Assembly: GCA_016929605.1 (NCBI GenBank)
Contig: JAFGIM010000034.1
Coordinates: 1 to 34,952, forward strand
Length of the DNA stretch: 34,952 nt
Source of the DNA: Spirochaetales bacterium
Lineage (GTDB): Bacteria > Spirochaetota > Spirochaetia > Treponematales > Treponemataceae
Reading direction: 5' to 3'
The notes under the pieces are model-generated. The model worked only from the letters and a program-made list of their open reading frames with translations, made no database searches and had not been told where the DNA came from. Made by a program: the position numbers and the translations under genes. The number at the start of each line of letters is the position of its first letter. The first letter of the stretch is position 1. Positions 25,181-32,242 of this stretch are shown piece after piece.

Positions 25181-25231
25181 AGTATATCAAGAGTATCAAT
25201 TTTTGCCAAACTTCAATTCTAAGCATATACT
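25181..25231. promoter_or_regulatory. Back-to-back divergent promoters with overlapping -35 elements
   Basis: Plus: TTGCCA (25203-25208)-17-TATACT (25226-25231). Minus: TTGGCA (25209-25204)-17-TATACT (25186-25181). Shared palindrome TTTGCCAAA. Confidence 0.65.
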
Positions 25232-25237
25232 ACAAAT

Positions 25238-26878
25238 ATGAAGAATACAGAGAATGTGCAAAAACCTGAGCCAGTTGAAGTTAGCCCGGGAATTTTCTGG
25301 GTGGGAAAGCGCTTTGAAGATGACTCAATTGACTGTAACCCCTATCTGATTATTGATAATGACCAAGCGGTACTTATTGACCCCGGTTCTGTCATCGATT
25401 TTTCTTATGTTCGGGATGCTATCCTGTCATTAATACCACTACAAAACATAGCTCTTATTATCGCACACCATCAGGACCCCGATATCTGTAGCTCCATTAC
25501 CAGCTTTTATCAAAGCGGAGTCAAAGCACCGGTAGCCATGCACTGGCGGACATCTGTGCTCGCACACTATTATGGTATACAGAATGAAACGTATCTTGTA
25601 TCCGAAAATAGTTGGAAATGGACATTCTCTAGCGGAAGAACTCTTCGTTTTATTCCCGCACCATATTGTCATTGCCCGGGTTGTATAATGACGTTTGATC
25701 AGACATCCGGCGTACTGTTCTCGAGCGATTTATTCGGCTCGCTTGATTCAAGCAAAAATCTATTTGCCGGTCCTGACTATCTGGAAGGCATGAAGGCGTT
25801 TCATGCGCACTACATGCCATCGCATGAAATTCTATCTCCAGTTATGCGATCTCTGATGCCACTGGACATCTCTATAATTGCACCACAGCACGGACAAATT
25901 ATACGGGACAACATCAAGCAACATATAAGTGTTCTTGAATCTCTTGAATGTGGCACCTTTGCCGTAAAACCAGACACTCCATTTGCCCAAAACAGCTTTC
26001 TTTTCCCGGATAAAAGCGCTGACCATGAAGCTTTTCGCAAAGAGATTCTTCGCCTGCATCACCAAATTTCAAAGGAAGCAGCGTGCCTGTATTTCTCGTT
26101 AGATAATCTTGAATCAGTAAACCGAATGTATTCACGCAAGGCTGGAGACGAGATGATCCATGCCCTTGCGTATATTGTGGACAACACCATTGCTGATCTA
26201 CCTGACTGGCGAAGATATACATTAGACTCTCCCTACATTGCCTGTATCGCCGAAAACACAACAAGCGATCAAGTTACACAATTGATTGAACGTATACGAC
26301 ACAGCGCCGAAACAACAGAATTTACTATTGAACCGCCAATACTCTCAATTGCCGTTGTTTACACTTCCGATCTTTATCATGTTCCCGACTCAGAAATCGT
26401 TAAAGAAACTGAAAATACACTATTAGCTCGCCTTAACCATGCACGACGCAATCCAGCTGGAGGATTTTGCGACAGCCTTGACGATAACACAGCACTTCAA
26501 TACTTACAAAAAAATATCCTCCTGATCGAACCAGATGAATCCTATATACGCTTCCTTGAACCTTTTTTTCAGGAACGAGGATATCGTCTTACGGCGATTG
26601 CGGATGGATCATCAGTGGCGGACATGTTAAAAAAGCACATCCCTGATCTCGTTATTGCCGAAGCAATGGCACCACAGGTTAACGGATTTGAAGTGCACGA
26701 TGTTTTACGAATGAATGGAAAAAGCGCAGGGATTCCTTTTATTCTAATCTCCCGAAGAAAAGATGAAGCATTTATCAAGATGGCAACAGACAAGGGGATT
26801 ATTCATTTTTTGAAAAAACCTTTTTACAAGACAGAACTCCTTGGACTTGTGGATAATCTATTAAGGTCGCACCCATGA
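25238..26878 (+). CDS. ODP/flavodiiron-type metallo-beta-lactamase-fold domain + degenerate GGDEF + receiver-like domain
   Basis: N-term: IALIIAHHQDPDICSSI, PYCHCPGCIMTFDQTSGVLFSSDLFGSL, IAPQHGQII (MBL/ODP). Middle: LYFSLDNLESVNRMYSRKAGDEMIHALAYIV...RYTLDSPYIACI aligned by eye to GGDEF. C-term: NILLIEPDESYIRFL..PDLVIAEAMAPQVNGFEV..ILISRR..HFLKKPF (REC). Confidence 0.75.
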   Translation: MKNTENVQKPEPVEVSPGIFWVGKRFEDDSIDCNPYLIIDNDQAVLIDPGSVIDFSYVRDAILSLIPLQNIALIIAHHQDPDICSSITSFYQSGVKAPVAMHWRTSVLAHYYGIQNETYLVSENSWKWTFSSGRTLRFIPAPYCHCPGCIMTFDQTSGVLFSSDLFGSLDSSKNLFAGPDYLEGMKAFHAHYMPSHEILSPVMRSLMPLDISIIAPQHGQIIRDNIKQHISVLESLECGTFAVKPDTPFAQNSFLFPDKSADHEAFRKEILRLHHQISKEAACLYFSLDNLESVNRMYSRKAGDEMIHALAYIVDNTIADLPDWRRYTLDSPYIACIAENTTSDQVTQLIERIRHSAETTEFTIEPPILSIAVVYTSDLYHVPDSEIVKETENTLLARLNHARRNPAGGFCDSLDDNTALQYLQKNILLIEPDESYIRFLEPFFQERGYRLTAIADGSSVADMLKKHIPDLVIAEAMAPQVNGFEVHDVLRMNGKSAGIPFILISRRKDEAFIKMATDKGIIHFLKKPFYKTELLGLVDNLLRSHP

Positions 26879-29724
26879 CAGATTTTGCAGACATTTTTCT
26901 TTTTGAAGTCCTTATATATATAGCATGTATACTTTTGCTTTGGATAATTCAGTCTTATAAGCATGGAAAGGAAAAACGACTTCACAGATGGGCACAAAAC
27001 ACTCTTACAAACATATTGGGTCGCGATACTCCACATACCAAGGGAATTGTATCCACTGCACGTAAAAGAAACGCCTTGCTTGATGCATGGATTAGCCTCT
27101 CTCAAACGATTCTTCCAGATCAACTTGAAAAAAAGCGGTTTACTGCACTAGCAACCAAAACAGCTCTTGATATGTACTGGATCCGTCGACTTCGCTCCAG
27201 CTCCATATATACCAGGAGCCGTGCAGCGTATTATCTTGGGTACCTTGAAACGGACAGATCAAAACGGGCACTTGTAGCTTCCCTTAAACAGGAACAAAAA
27301 GAATCTGTAAAGCTCTACCTTATTCATTCATTGGTCACACTTGGAGTGTCATCATCACTACCGGATATTATAGATACCTTACACGGAAGCAGCGATCGGT
27401 TTATAATGCGGGTTACTGGGCTTCTTCTTGATTTCCAATCAAGTTTTATCGCTTTATTTCCCAACCTTGAAACCCGCCCTGAAGGTGAAATATGCGCCCT
27501 GATTGTTGAATACGCCCGCCTTGCGCCCTTTAAAAATTTTGCTGCATATCTTAAGCGGGTTTTCCTGGATCTCCATACAGATAAAGCCTTGCGATTAAAA
27601 GCGTTTGAATGTCTTCTTGAATCGTATCCCTACACGATTAATCCTTCAGATTTCCTTGATGATCCTGACTTACACATAGCGCAAAAGGCGTGTAGCAACC
27701 TGGCAAATCGTCCCGGCAAAGCTAATGCGCTTATCTTACTTCAAAAAATGCGAAATCAGAACCACCGAGAGCACGCCCTGCATTCTCTTTCCTTAATGGT
27801 TAAAACATCAAACGATGTGTTCATGTTTCTTAAAGACAGATTATCTACAGAGCAAGATCCCGACCAACACACACTTCTGTGCCGTGCCTTAGCTGCACGA
27901 TTGGACTACTTCCTGCTCCATCAACAGAGCGACAAACCTCACATTGCCCAAGACATTATCCATACGGTTCTTGCTACCGGACAAATCAGCGACATTATCA
28001 CCTTTTTAAACACAAACCATAATGCCACACTTGAACGCTTTGTAATAAGCATACTGCAATCTGCGATGTATTCTGAAGCGCCCTGGCTAATGGAACTTCA
28101 ATCATACCTTTCGCCAACAATCTTACAAAAAATAGGAATCCCCAAAAAACCGGTAACACAACAAAGAACAGGCACAAAAAACGAGTATATCCCACGTATT
28201 CCCCTTACGATTATTCTCGTTAGTATTGCCCTTGTTCTCCCCTCCTTTGCCTTATATTCTTTCTTACAAGGAAATACTTCAGTACGTGCAGTGCTATCTA
28301 TCTCCTTCAGGAATTTCTTGTATGCCTTCAGTTTCTATAGCATGGTAATAACATCGTTTTATCTTTTTCTTACTGCCTGTGCATACAAAGAATCACGAAG
28401 ACAAACAAAACTGACCACATTAAAAAGCGAATCTTTTTTGTTTACCAAAAACATGCTTCCTTCTATTAGCATCCTGGCACCGGCATTTAACGAGGAAGCA
28501 AGCATTATCGCGAGCGTAGAATCGCTTCGCCATGTATTGTATCCCTCTGTCGAAATTATCGTCATTAACGACGGATCAAAAGACAATACACTTGCTCTAC
28601 TTATAGATCACTTCTCGCTCGAACGGCACGAAGGAGACCATCAACAAGCATTAAGCACACAGCATATTCGAGGCGTGTACAAAAACCCCTCCATACCAGA
28701 ACTGGCAGTTATCGACAAGGTAAACGGAGGAAAGGCTGATTCACTTAACGCTGGAATAAATCTTGCTCAAGGGGAGTACATCCTTGGCATCGACAGCGAC
28801 AGCCTTCTTGACCGCAAGGCACTGCTATCTATTGCCGCAGCCTTCATTGATGAAGAGAAACCCGTTATTGCGTCCGGAGGAAATATCCTGCCTATAAATG
28901 GCTGTACGATCAATCAAGGAGCGATTATCGATCGTCGCGTCCCCAAACAGGCTATTCCTTTATTCCAAACAATCGAATACCTTCGATCGTTCCTGAACGG
29001 TCGGCTTGGCTGGGCACACTTACGTTCCCTTATGATAATATCTGGTGCATTTGGTTTATTCAGAAAGGAAGAGGTAGTACAGGTTCGTGGATACCTGACA
29101 AGTTCTGAACGCCATGGAAAAGATACCGTTGGAGAGGATATGGAACTAGTGGTTCGTCTTGCCAGACGCATGAAGGACAACAAGAAATCCTTTCGTATTC
29201 TTTATAATGCACAGGCTACCTGCTGGACGGAAGTTCCCTCAACGTTCCCAATACTCAGGCGGCAACGGGAGCGTTGGCAACGCGGATTAATCGATATTCT
29301 TTCCTTCCATCGCTCTATGATTCTCAATCCCCGGTATGGCACCTATGGATTACTCGGTTTTCCTTATTATTTGCTATTTGAGGTAATCGGTCCCTGGCTA
29401 GAGTTTCTTGGCCTTGGTGTATTCGCCGCTTCCCTTGCTGCGGGATTTGTCGACCACTCTTTGCTAATTCTGATAATAACGTCTAACTTTCTCTTCAGTT
29501 TTGCTTTGTCTATAACATCACTCTATACTAGTGAGAGAGAAAGGACTTTGTTTCCGTTACGAGATAAGGTTTTTCTCGCACTTGCTGCGCTTGCAGAGAC
29601 AATTGGCTTTCGTCAAATCGTGTCTTTTTATAGAATTTCTGGTTTTGTGAGTATATTACGAAAGGTGACCGGGTGGGGAACTATGACCCGCACTGGCTTT
29701 ACAATGAAAAGGAGCAAACAATGA
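26875..29724 (+). CDS. HEAT-repeat domain fused to membrane GT2 processive glycosyltransferase (BcsA/PgaC-like)
   Basis: N-terminal helical repeats (RSRAAYYLGYLETDRSKRALVASLKQEQKESVKLYLIHSLVTLGVSSSLPDIIDTL); GT2: SILAPAFNEEASIIASVESL..IIVINDGSKDNT, DKVNGGKADSLNAGI, ILGIDSDS, VGEDMELVVRL, RRQRERWQRGL; flanking TM helices. Confidence 0.88.
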   Translation: MTDFADIFLFEVLIYIACILLLWIIQSYKHGKEKRLHRWAQNTLTNILGRDTPHTKGIVSTARKRNALLDAWISLSQTILPDQLEKKRFTALATKTALDMYWIRRLRSSSIYTRSRAAYYLGYLETDRSKRALVASLKQEQKESVKLYLIHSLVTLGVSSSLPDIIDTLHGSSDRFIMRVTGLLLDFQSSFIALFPNLETRPEGEICALIVEYARLAPFKNFAAYLKRVFLDLHTDKALRLKAFECLLESYPYTINPSDFLDDPDLHIAQKACSNLANRPGKANALILLQKMRNQNHREHALHSLSLMVKTSNDVFMFLKDRLSTEQDPDQHTLLCRALAARLDYFLLHQQSDKPHIAQDIIHTVLATGQISDIITFLNTNHNATLERFVISILQSAMYSEAPWLMELQSYLSPTILQKIGIPKKPVTQQRTGTKNEYIPRIPLTIILVSIALVLPSFALYSFLQGNTSVRAVLSISFRNFLYAFSFYSMVITSFYLFLTACAYKESRRQTKLTTLKSESFLFTKNMLPSISILAPAFNEEASIIASVESLRHVLYPSVEIIVINDGSKDNTLALLIDHFSLERHEGDHQQALSTQHIRGVYKNPSIPELAVIDKVNGGKADSLNAGINLAQGEYILGIDSDSLLDRKALLSIAAAFIDEEKPVIASGGNILPINGCTINQGAIIDRRVPKQAIPLFQTIEYLRSFLNGRLGWAHLRSLMIISGAFGLFRKEEVVQVRGYLTSSERHGKDTVGEDMELVVRLARRMKDNKKSFRILYNAQATCWTEVPSTFPILRRQRERWQRGLIDILSFHRSMILNPRYGTYGLLGFPYYLLFEVIGPWLEFLGLGVFAASLAAGFVDHSLLILIITSNFLFSFALSITSLYTSERERTLFPLRDKVFLALAALAETIGFRQIVSFYRISGFVSILRKVTGWGTMTRTGFTMKRSKQ

Positions 29725-30458
29725 AGCGTTATATGGCAGCAATTCTTTTTAGTGTGGCATCCCTGCTGTGGGCACAATCATTTAATTTCAGAAATATTTT
29801 CGATATAAATTACATCGGTTATAACAACGACACCTACGTCTTTGAAACCGAGAACACCCTTTTGTACTATTATTCGGACACCCTAATACCGCTTGCTCGG
29901 GTCAGAGTTACCAAAACGCAGTATGAGCTTCGGACTCTTATTCAGCCGGGAGTTGTATGGATTTTTATGCCCGGATTATATAGCGAGATAGTATACGGTA
30001 TATCTTCTAACGAAGATGGTGAGTTGGGCCAGGATGGTTATATTGAACTTGTTCATGAAACAGATACCACTATTGCCTCCGCACGGTTTCGGGCCGGATA
30101 TTATCACGAGAGCGAGGTTCTCTACCTTATTCCGGATGTCTCCTTTAAAAAGCAATTCACATCCCTGTATTCTTTAAAATTGAAATACTTTTTTGGCTAT
30201 ACTGACGAGCCGTTCTACTCGCACTCTGTACAACTGGAAAATGGTTTTTCCTTTAATAAACAGTATGCGGCGACTTTAATTACCACTGGAATTACAGAGG
30301 ATATCTCCGGCTCCTGGGAAAACAGTTGGTCTGCCGGACTACGCCTTGAAGCCCTTGTTGCACAGCGGCTTACCATAAAATATCTTTTTCAGTATCACTC
30401 ACTCGTGAACGATGTGTGGGGAATAGAAAACGGCCTTACGCTTGATTGGCAGTTTTAA
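29721..30458 (+). CDS. Predicted outer-membrane beta-barrel protein (YaiO-like)
   Basis: Signal peptide MKRYMAAILFSVASLLWAQ; amphipathic beta-strands, C-terminal aromatic LTLDWQF; ATGA overlap with GT2 gene; SD AAGGAG. Confidence 0.65.
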   Translation: MKRYMAAILFSVASLLWAQSFNFRNIFDINYIGYNNDTYVFETENTLLYYYSDTLIPLARVRVTKTQYELRTLIQPGVVWIFMPGLYSEIVYGISSNEDGELGQDGYIELVHETDTTIASARFRAGYYHESEVLYLIPDVSFKKQFTSLYSLKLKYFFGYTDEPFYSHSVQLENGFSFNKQYAATLITTGITEDISGSWENSWSAGLRLEALVAQRLTIKYLFQYHSLVNDVWGIENGLTLDWQF

Positions 30459-31201: not shown

Positions 31202-32242
31202 ATGAAGACACACAAGATTCTATCATGTTGCCTGGTGGTAGCCACTATAATCCTGATCGGTGGATGCGCCAAAACCCCGGTAGCCAAACACGGCCGTCTT
31301 TCCGTTCAGGGAAAAACCCTCGTTGACTCACGGGGACAACCGGTTCAACTTCGCGGATTCAGTACCCAGCACATCGCCAAGTCGGACATGTTCGTAGCTC
31401 CTCGCTACCTGAAGGAAATTCGCGACGACTTTGCGAGTGACGTAATCCGGGTTGCCATGTACACCAACAAACGCGAATACGGCTACATGCTCTCTCCGGA
31501 ACTTAAAGAAGTGGTTAAGAAAGTCGTAAAAGATGCAACAAAAGAAGGAATGTATGCCATTATCGACTGGCACATCCTTGCCGACCGGAATCCCATGGAT
31601 CTATTAGAAGAGTCCAAAGCCTTTTTCGATGAAATGTCAAAAGAGTTCGCATCCTACAATAACGTATTCTATGAACTGTGCAACGAACCGAACGGAGACG
31701 ATGTAACATGGGCGGATCACATTAAACCCTATGCAGAGGAAGTAACCTCAGTAATCCGCAAGAATGATAAGCGTAACATCATCCTGGTAGGAACACCCCG
31801 ATGGTCTTCCCAACCGCAAGAGGCAGCTGCCGACCCCCTCTCCGATCCGGCCACAATGTACGTATTTCATTTTTATCCGGATCACGCAACACAGGCCGCA
31901 CGCGATAACATAGCGCGCGTCCACGAACAGATTCCCCTATTTTGCACCGAATTCGGCGCTTCGGAATCGAGCGGCGCCGGAAAGATATACCCTGCCGAAA
32001 TCGGACGATGGATGGACCTGATGGACGAGCGAAAGATCTCCTGGTGCAACTGGAATCTGTCCGCCCTCCATGAAGCAAGCGCCGCCCTCCAAATCTCCTT
32101 CAAGGTCGGTACCGACATGCGCCTTGCCGACAAACTCTCCCCTTCCGGTGAACTTATCCGCTACTACATCAGGCGCGGCCGCGTCCCGGAGAAAGACCTC
32201 GAAGTTCCTTCATTCATTAATGAAGAGACTATGCGGCGGTAA
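31202..32242 (+). CDS. Lipoprotein glycoside hydrolase family 5 (cellulase-like)
   Basis: Lipobox IGGC; YAIIDWHIL, FYELCNEPNGDD (acid/base NEP), YVFHFYPDHA, PLFCTEFGASE (nucleophile). Confidence 0.9.
   Translation: MKTHKILSCCLVVATIILIGGCAKTPVAKHGRLSVQGKTLVDSRGQPVQLRGFSTQHIAKSDMFVAPRYLKEIRDDFASDVIRVAMYTNKREYGYMLSPELKEVVKKVVKDATKEGMYAIIDWHILADRNPMDLLEESKAFFDEMSKEFASYNNVFYELCNEPNGDDVTWADHIKPYAEEVTSVIRKNDKRNIILVGTPRWSSQPQEAAADPLSDPATMYVFHFYPDHATQAARDNIARVHEQIPLFCTEFGASESSGAGKIYPAEIGRWMDLMDERKISWCNWNLSALHEASAALQISFKVGTDMRLADKLSPSGELIRYYIRRGRVPEKDLEVPSFINEETMRR

Follow-up and report, generated by a model that had tools for sequence, protein, structure and literature searches.

We describe here a pair of adjacent genes that joins a degenerate signalling protein to a membrane glycosyltransferase; the pair is real, widely conserved and apparently undescribed. 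It was recognised in the window, the 34,952-nt stretch of DNA analysed here, which is the entire source contig of a 2.16 Mb assembly (78% complete). Gene 1 (25238..26878, + strand, 546 aa), assigned from its ORF and Pfam matches, encodes a regulator composed of an ODP domain, a degenerate GGDEF domain and a pseudo-receiver domain (REC), and its family is the upstream partner of HEAT-GT2 genes throughout the family. Gene 2 (26875..29724, + strand, 949 aa) encodes a HEAT-GT2 membrane synthase, as judged by ORF, Pfam, AlphaFold, profile comparison and Foldseek, and gene 3 (29721..30458, + strand) a predicted 14-stranded outer-membrane beta-barrel with an N-terminal signal-like helix (AlphaFold, Foldseek). 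The ORF coordinates bear out an earlier note on this DNA in which the three genes were described as coupled by ATGA overlaps: both junctions, gene 1/gene 2 and gene 2/gene 3, overlap in this way, the latter with the sequence AAAAGGAGCAAACAATGA, and the ORF list places the ATG start codon of gene 3 at 29721 and its end at 30458. A sigma-70-like promoter candidate (TTGCCA-17-TATACT, 25203..25231, + strand) ends 7 nt 5' of the gene 1 ATG; it is a consensus match only, in a region whose total is not significantly greater than that of shuffled sequences. The promoter-like hexamers in 25203-25238 would, if used, give a nearly leaderless gene 1 transcript, and a divergent promoter-like site overlaps the candidate in the same interval. 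We found no description of a HEAT, GT2 and YaiO operon or of an ODP and GGDEF operon in the open-access literature that was searched.

Conservation of the pair supports a functional unit. As the synthase alone served to choose the loci, the count of regulator pairing is not circular; the scan part of the sample consists of the best 80 matches, and near-identical strains may remain in it. A single-sequence scan of genome contigs with the window synthase gave no matches, and an alignment-based scan of the same contigs did recover relatives. At family level the synthase was present in 7 of 118 genomes, all in the genus of the window, and strong matches occurred in 28 of the 393 genomes of the phylum sample. 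Named genomes with matches included Acetobacterium, Fusibacter, Parasporobacterium, Anaerobium, Trichococcus, Sphaerochaeta and Rectinema, along with Acholeplasmataceae/Izemoplasma MAGs and one Fibrobacteria MAG; plasmid sequences matched the GT2 half only. Altogether at least 107 non-redundant loci were collected, with HEAT fused to GT2 in 94 of them. Among the loci listed, 88 non-redundant fused genes have at least 400 nt of upstream sequence and could be scored, and the regulator family lies directly upstream, within 1.4 kb, at 87 of these. The sole exception is L142, in which the synthase frame is broken in the ORF call. The pair occurs in Spirochaetota, Bacillota, Acholeplasmatales/Izemoplasma and one Fibrobacteria MAG, and a 4-nt overlap links regulator and synthase genes in 33 of the 75 pairs scored for it. 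Since 87/88 relatives across phyla keep the gene 1-gene 2 order, the arrangement is not due to chance. Apparent natural fusions of regulator and synthase (L049, L050, L127, L131) were rejected: GC-rich DNA has lengthened these ORFs without a stop codon, and the regulator is read in a different frame.

Gene 2 has the features of a processive membrane GT2. Its catalytic domain (residues about 530-810, 28462..29304, + strand; Pfam, Foldseek and motif positions) matches Glycos_transf_2 with 68.6 bits and carries NGGKAD at residue 617, DSDS at 640, GED (in VGEDME) at 752 and QRERW at 797, and NDGS is also present; thus D, DxD, [G]ED and QxxRW are all found, together with C-terminal membrane helices seen in the AlphaFold secondary structure (residues about 823-928, 29341..29658, + strand). 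In front lies a HEAT-type helical solenoid (residues about 62-420, 27058..28134, + strand), identified by AlphaFold, by a profile match to alphaRep proteins and by HEAT_2. The model (pLDDT 88.5, pTM 0.87) contains the solenoid and the GT2 domain with its membrane helices, and a profile of the family recovers designed alphaRep proteins of the HEAT type (best E=4.8e-28), for the most part through residues 97-242. HEAT_2 is just cleared in the window protein, with 27.8 bits (cut-off 27.7), and scores 40.3 bits in an Acetobacterium relative. HMM, AlphaFold and motifs therefore agree with the original description of a HEAT-like domain fused to a GT2 with these four motifs. The nearest folds to the GT2 part are hyaluronan synthases (8snc, TMt 0.66, rmsd 4.7 in Foldseek). 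Assignment as an equivalog of the PNAG synthase PgaC/IcaA (TIGR03937) was rejected, the score being 108.3 bits where 422.3 are required, and a Pfam search detected no PilZ domain in gene 2. At the family level we infer an exopolysaccharide as the product. Gene 2 would be a processive GT2 polymerase in the inner membrane, comparable to hyaluronan, PNAG and cellulose synthases and preceded by a HEAT solenoid on the cytosolic side, and the operon would represent a synthase-dependent polysaccharide pathway.

The third position of the operon is variable. Gene 3 is modelled with 14 strands and an N-terminal helix (pLDDT 88.1), by prediction a closed antiparallel barrel with a signal sequence, as in outer-membrane beta-barrels, and its Foldseek matches are porin-like (OmpG, TMq 0.73; FadL; PgaA). 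The barrel that had been proposed on reading the sequence is therefore predicted as such, but its assignment to the YaiO type fails: the window protein has no Pfam match to YaiO (PF19413), its sister protein reaches 15.2 bits against a cut-off of 23.9, and profile comparison with genuine YaiO barrels (hhalign) gives a probability of 0.1. Genes 1 and 2 are kept together almost throughout; the family of the barrel is present in only 10 of the 94 fused loci. A protein of about 1000 aa that was classed as an envelope protein with no assigned family is more common (33/94), and a SpoIIE-PP2C protein lies near 9. It is thus conceivable, if quite improbable, that genes 1 and 2 alone form the functional unit and that gene 3, a porin with no relation to it, shares their transcript by chance; besides the counts just given, the barrel is as similar to generic porins as to PgaA. 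However, further loci from Spirochaetota (L041, L042, L120, L086, L078, L083, L129) have a member of the same barrel family beside the pair, the ATGA overlap is present in the window, and a YaiO barrel occupies the equivalent place in the unfused relatives described below. We therefore retain gene 3 as the putative barrel through which the polymer would cross the outer membrane.

Several other neighbours deserve mention. The protein of about 1000 aa (L118:10832-13999 and 30 related ORFs, about 700-1130 aa) is the usual partner of the pair elsewhere; it was absent from the search of the source genome and has no Pfam or PDB relative, so that it gives no clue to the polymer, and its conserved GVNxG, AEFG and FEWxDEW motifs resemble a clan-A glycosidase. 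In the type B loci (L045:4948-6507, L046:1349-2911, L044:2930-4276) a SpoIIE phosphatase and HATPase_c_2 protein is encoded directly upstream of the regulator, and in L139 a STAS protein is found at the SpoIIE-equivalent place next to the regulator, an arrangement that hints at partner switching as a further input to this synthase. A PAS-GGDEF gene directly follows the pair in Acholeplasmatales (L091:10608-11513, with an intact GGDEF of 138 bits; similarly in L090, L096 and L105). In the window, a GH5 cellulase-family lipoprotein (31202-32242, E=2.8e-54) is encoded shortly 3' of the barrel gene, with a minus-strand 3-methyladenine DNA glycosylase gene in between; the lipoprotein could act on the polymer of the operon.

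The N-terminal part of the regulator is an ODP domain with metallo-beta-lactamase fold (residues 31-219, 25328..25894, + strand), assigned by Pfam, solved ODP chains and ligand columns. It matches PF19583 with 196.8 bits (E=4.5e-58, cut-off 27.2), as expected from the ODP/MBL domain read there before, although the same Pfam entry also matches in 12 of 14 control genomes and is by itself not specific. The best PDB matches are two ODPs (6qnm/6qrq, 5.5e-26 and 1e-24), compared to 1e-10 for the best flavodiiron protein. Gene 1 and these two chains have the HQDPD motif in common, the solved ODPs reading HQDPDV, and the ligand-equivalent residues H78, D80, D82, H145, D164 and H218 are all kept, while the seventh flavodiiron His position is replaced by I83, as it is in solved ODPs. 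The relationship to flavodiiron enzymes might allow gene 1 to be an active ODP-type enzyme for O2 or NO reduction, which would sit beside the synthase to protect against stress and have no part in signalling. This we regard as very improbable indeed: gene 1 has no flavodoxin or rubredoxin domain, its ODP is fused to signalling domains, and the site is lost in many relatives that still keep the pair.

A survey of the ligand columns puts the sensory role of the ODP into perspective. The complete ligand set is present in 25 of 61 regulators, window included, from Spirochaetota, Bacillota and one Fibrobacteria MAG, a distribution that implies that the metal site is under selection. The remaining 36 do not show it, as the ODP is degenerate, absent or cut at a contig edge, and the pair is still kept. 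Degraded sites are found in Acholeplasmatales, the Rectinema group and type B loci L044-L046, the latter from the genus of the window, and L128, L141 and L143 encode a GGDEF-REC protein of about 324 residues in which no ODP is called. The suggestion of an oxygen- or iron-responsive system is thus compatible with the ligands of the window protein but does not extend to the family: as 36/61 relatives do not show the site and the pair persists in them, the function common to the whole family cannot be Fe/O2 sensing, and judged from these columns such control would be lineage-specific at most. It follows from the loss or absence of the ODP in many relatives that the degenerate GGDEF and receiver form the constant core and the ODP a variable input. 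One locus of the same genus (G077:C16, L047:6058-7402) has ODP residues 1-152, 80% identical to those of the window, running straight into the barrel gene; it lacks the remainder of the regulator and all of HEAT-GT2, through either a deletion or an assembly join.

Both core domains have lost their signature residues. The GGDEF domain (residues 264-365, 26027..26332, + strand; Pfam and motif survey) has no GGDEF signature, scores 19.8 bits, below the Pfam cut-off of 23.8, and is the weakest among 26 GGDEF matches in the source genome, although several orthologues clear the cut-off with 49.6-65 bits. The motif survey found GG[DE]EF in none of the 61 regulators, window included, and no RxxD I-site was seen by eye in the aligned region of the window protein and its relatives. 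The pseudo-receiver (residues 427-537, 26516..26848, + strand; Pfam and relatives) matches Response_reg with 51.6 bits and carries Glu475 at the phospho-Asp position, while Lys527 and Ser505 are kept. Among the 61 regulators the phospho-site is Glu in 58 and Asp in three, Lys is retained in 50 and Ser/Thr in 59. The GGDEF-like and receiver-like domains first noticed in the translation are hence recovered, the former below cut-off, and the view that the regulator does not actively synthesise c-di-GMP is strengthened. Loss of GG[DE]EF and of the phospho-Asp, together with the lack of a usual output domain, makes it less likely that the regulator itself binds DNA or synthesises c-di-GMP. Glu is the substitute in 26% of Asp-less receivers and can confer phosphate-independent activity, but alone it is often insufficient for constitutive activity (PMC4395418); in the present family it may mimic phosphorylation.

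Alternatively, the degenerate GGDEF domain might bind GTP or c-di-GMP at a non-canonical site as an effector, such that the synthase answers to a nucleotide and the ODP only modulates. The window protein retains N and D at guanine-binding-like positions (VNRMYSRKAGDE), more than 20 canonical GGDEF domains and five PilZ matches over cut-off are encoded in the source genome, an intact PAS-GGDEF gene follows the pair in Acholeplasmatales (L091, 138 bits), and BcsE and PelD provide a precedent. However, the RxxD I-site at which BcsE and PelD bind c-di-GMP is not present, the N/D-like positions are not retained in the Acetobacterium group (IEYLYG), and the synthase lacks PilZ, so that we consider nucleotide control rather unlikely.

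We favour, tentatively and with slightly more doubt than confidence, a model in which gene 1 is a pseudo-enzyme regulator that acts on the synthase via its HEAT domain, the ODP adds Fe/O2 modulation and the barrel exports the polymer. The degenerate GGDEF and receiver, having lost catalysis and phosphorylation, would now serve as binding or allosteric modules on HEAT, and the Glu replacing the phospho-Asp would hold the receiver in one state. The ODP, whose ODP-type di-iron site appears intact in the window lineage, would add modulation by Fe(II)/O2 (redox), and the amount of polymer made would depend on iron or oxygen with no transcriptional step in between. The earlier note had a regulator without output domain act directly on the synthase, perhaps by docking on HEAT. 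The pairing and the dead domains support such a dedicated regulator and are compatible with direct action. Docking gains weak support from partial distance correlations with HEAT given GT2, which over 58 loci are 0.57 for the degenerate GGDEF and 0.51 for the receiver versus 0.23 for the ODP; these values are modest, and fast evolution of HEAT and GGDEF could also produce them. In the favoured model the regulator probably docks on the HEAT solenoid, and the direction of the effect, iron or oxygen as the signal and export through gene 3 are likewise what we infer rather than observe.

A signal-free role is an unlikely alternative reading of the same degeneracy, in which the regulator of most lineages is a scaffold or assembly factor that stabilises, folds or positions HEAT-GT2 and its degenerate domains are structural. 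All three domains are simultaneously degenerate in Acholeplasmatales, the Rectinema group and type B loci, where the pair stays, and the conserved Glu implies a fixed receiver state. The ODP ligands preserved in 25 regulators of Spirochaetota, Bacillota and the Fibrobacteria MAG speak against this, and SpoIIE-PP2C or STAS genes beside some loci suggest regulated control.

A possible origin of the pseudo-enzyme regulator can be seen in loci with unfused parts. The locus of Candidatus Neomarinimicrobiota (L148) begins with a hybrid histidine kinase and continues with Hpt-REC-GGDEF-REC, HEAT, GT2 and TPR-YaiO, followed by a protein related to part of the partner of about 1000 aa; the GGEEF motif of the Hpt-REC-GGDEF-REC protein is intact and its receivers have the Asp. 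Christiangramia and a Terriglobia MAG encode receiver proteins ahead of separate HEAT and GT2 genes. The Neomarinimicrobiota loci have the same parts in the same order as the window and are probable unfused relatives, but their GGDEF and REC domains look active, HEAT is a separate gene and there is no ODP. The fused systems may be the derived version, with HEAT having become part of the synthase and catalysis having been lost from the signalling protein. Combined into a single scenario, a HEAT-bearing polymerase would be gated by contact with an ODP, a dead GGDEF and a Glu-locked receiver, would descend from a kinase/REC-GGDEF pathway whose once active enzymes lost their catalysis, and would let iron or oxygen gate output without nucleotide or phosphorylation; that every part of it holds seems doubtful. 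If true, a synthase would be switched on and off by direct contact and not via DNA or a signalling nucleotide, and pseudo-enzyme control would replace c-di-GMP across Spirochaetota, Bacillota and Acholeplasmatales, in walled as well as wall-less bacteria. The natural series from active REC-GGDEF in unfused loci to fully degenerate fused ones would illustrate how signalling enzymes turn into protein-contact regulators, and the pair offers a concrete test case of whether ODP domains gate enzymes besides chemoreceptors.

Known systems share single aspects of this arrangement. BcsE, a degenerate REC-GGDEF protein, controls cellulose secretion in E. coli through protein contacts (PMC7439463). Like gene 1, BcsE and PelD, the latter with a degenerate GGDEF, are catalytically dead REC and/or GGDEF proteins dedicated to an exopolysaccharide synthase machine (PMC7439463). 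In contrast to gene 1, they retain RxxD for c-di-GMP, the domain order differs, the ODP is extra in gene 1, and the partner synthase described here carries HEAT instead of PilZ. The chemotaxis ODP of Treponema denticola belongs to the same domain family with the same HQDPD...H...D...H ligands and is a cytosolic sensor working by protein contact (PMC7666581, PMC6978683), to which we liken gene 1. It is, however, stand-alone with a chemoreceptor as partner, while the ODP of gene 1 is fused to GGDEF and REC with a synthase as partner; that ODPs can be fused to signalling domains is a general observation made before (PMC7319448). In the E. coli NfrB-DgcJ system a dedicated signalling protein also contacts a GT2 polymerase locally, but there the cyclase, DgcJ, is active and c-di-GMP is bound by the MshEN domain of NfrB (PMC8669469), whereas gene 1 has a dead cyclase domain and gene 2 carries HEAT in place of MshEN. 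Gene 2 shares fold, motifs and membrane helices with processive GT2 enzymes of the hyaluronan synthase/PgaC/BcsA type, yet it is an equivalog of none of them and has an extra HEAT solenoid of about 360 residues. Thus, the nearest relatives are BcsE and PelD for the concept of the regulator, the T. denticola ODP for the sensor, NfrB-DgcJ for local contact with a synthase and hyaluronan synthases for the fold.
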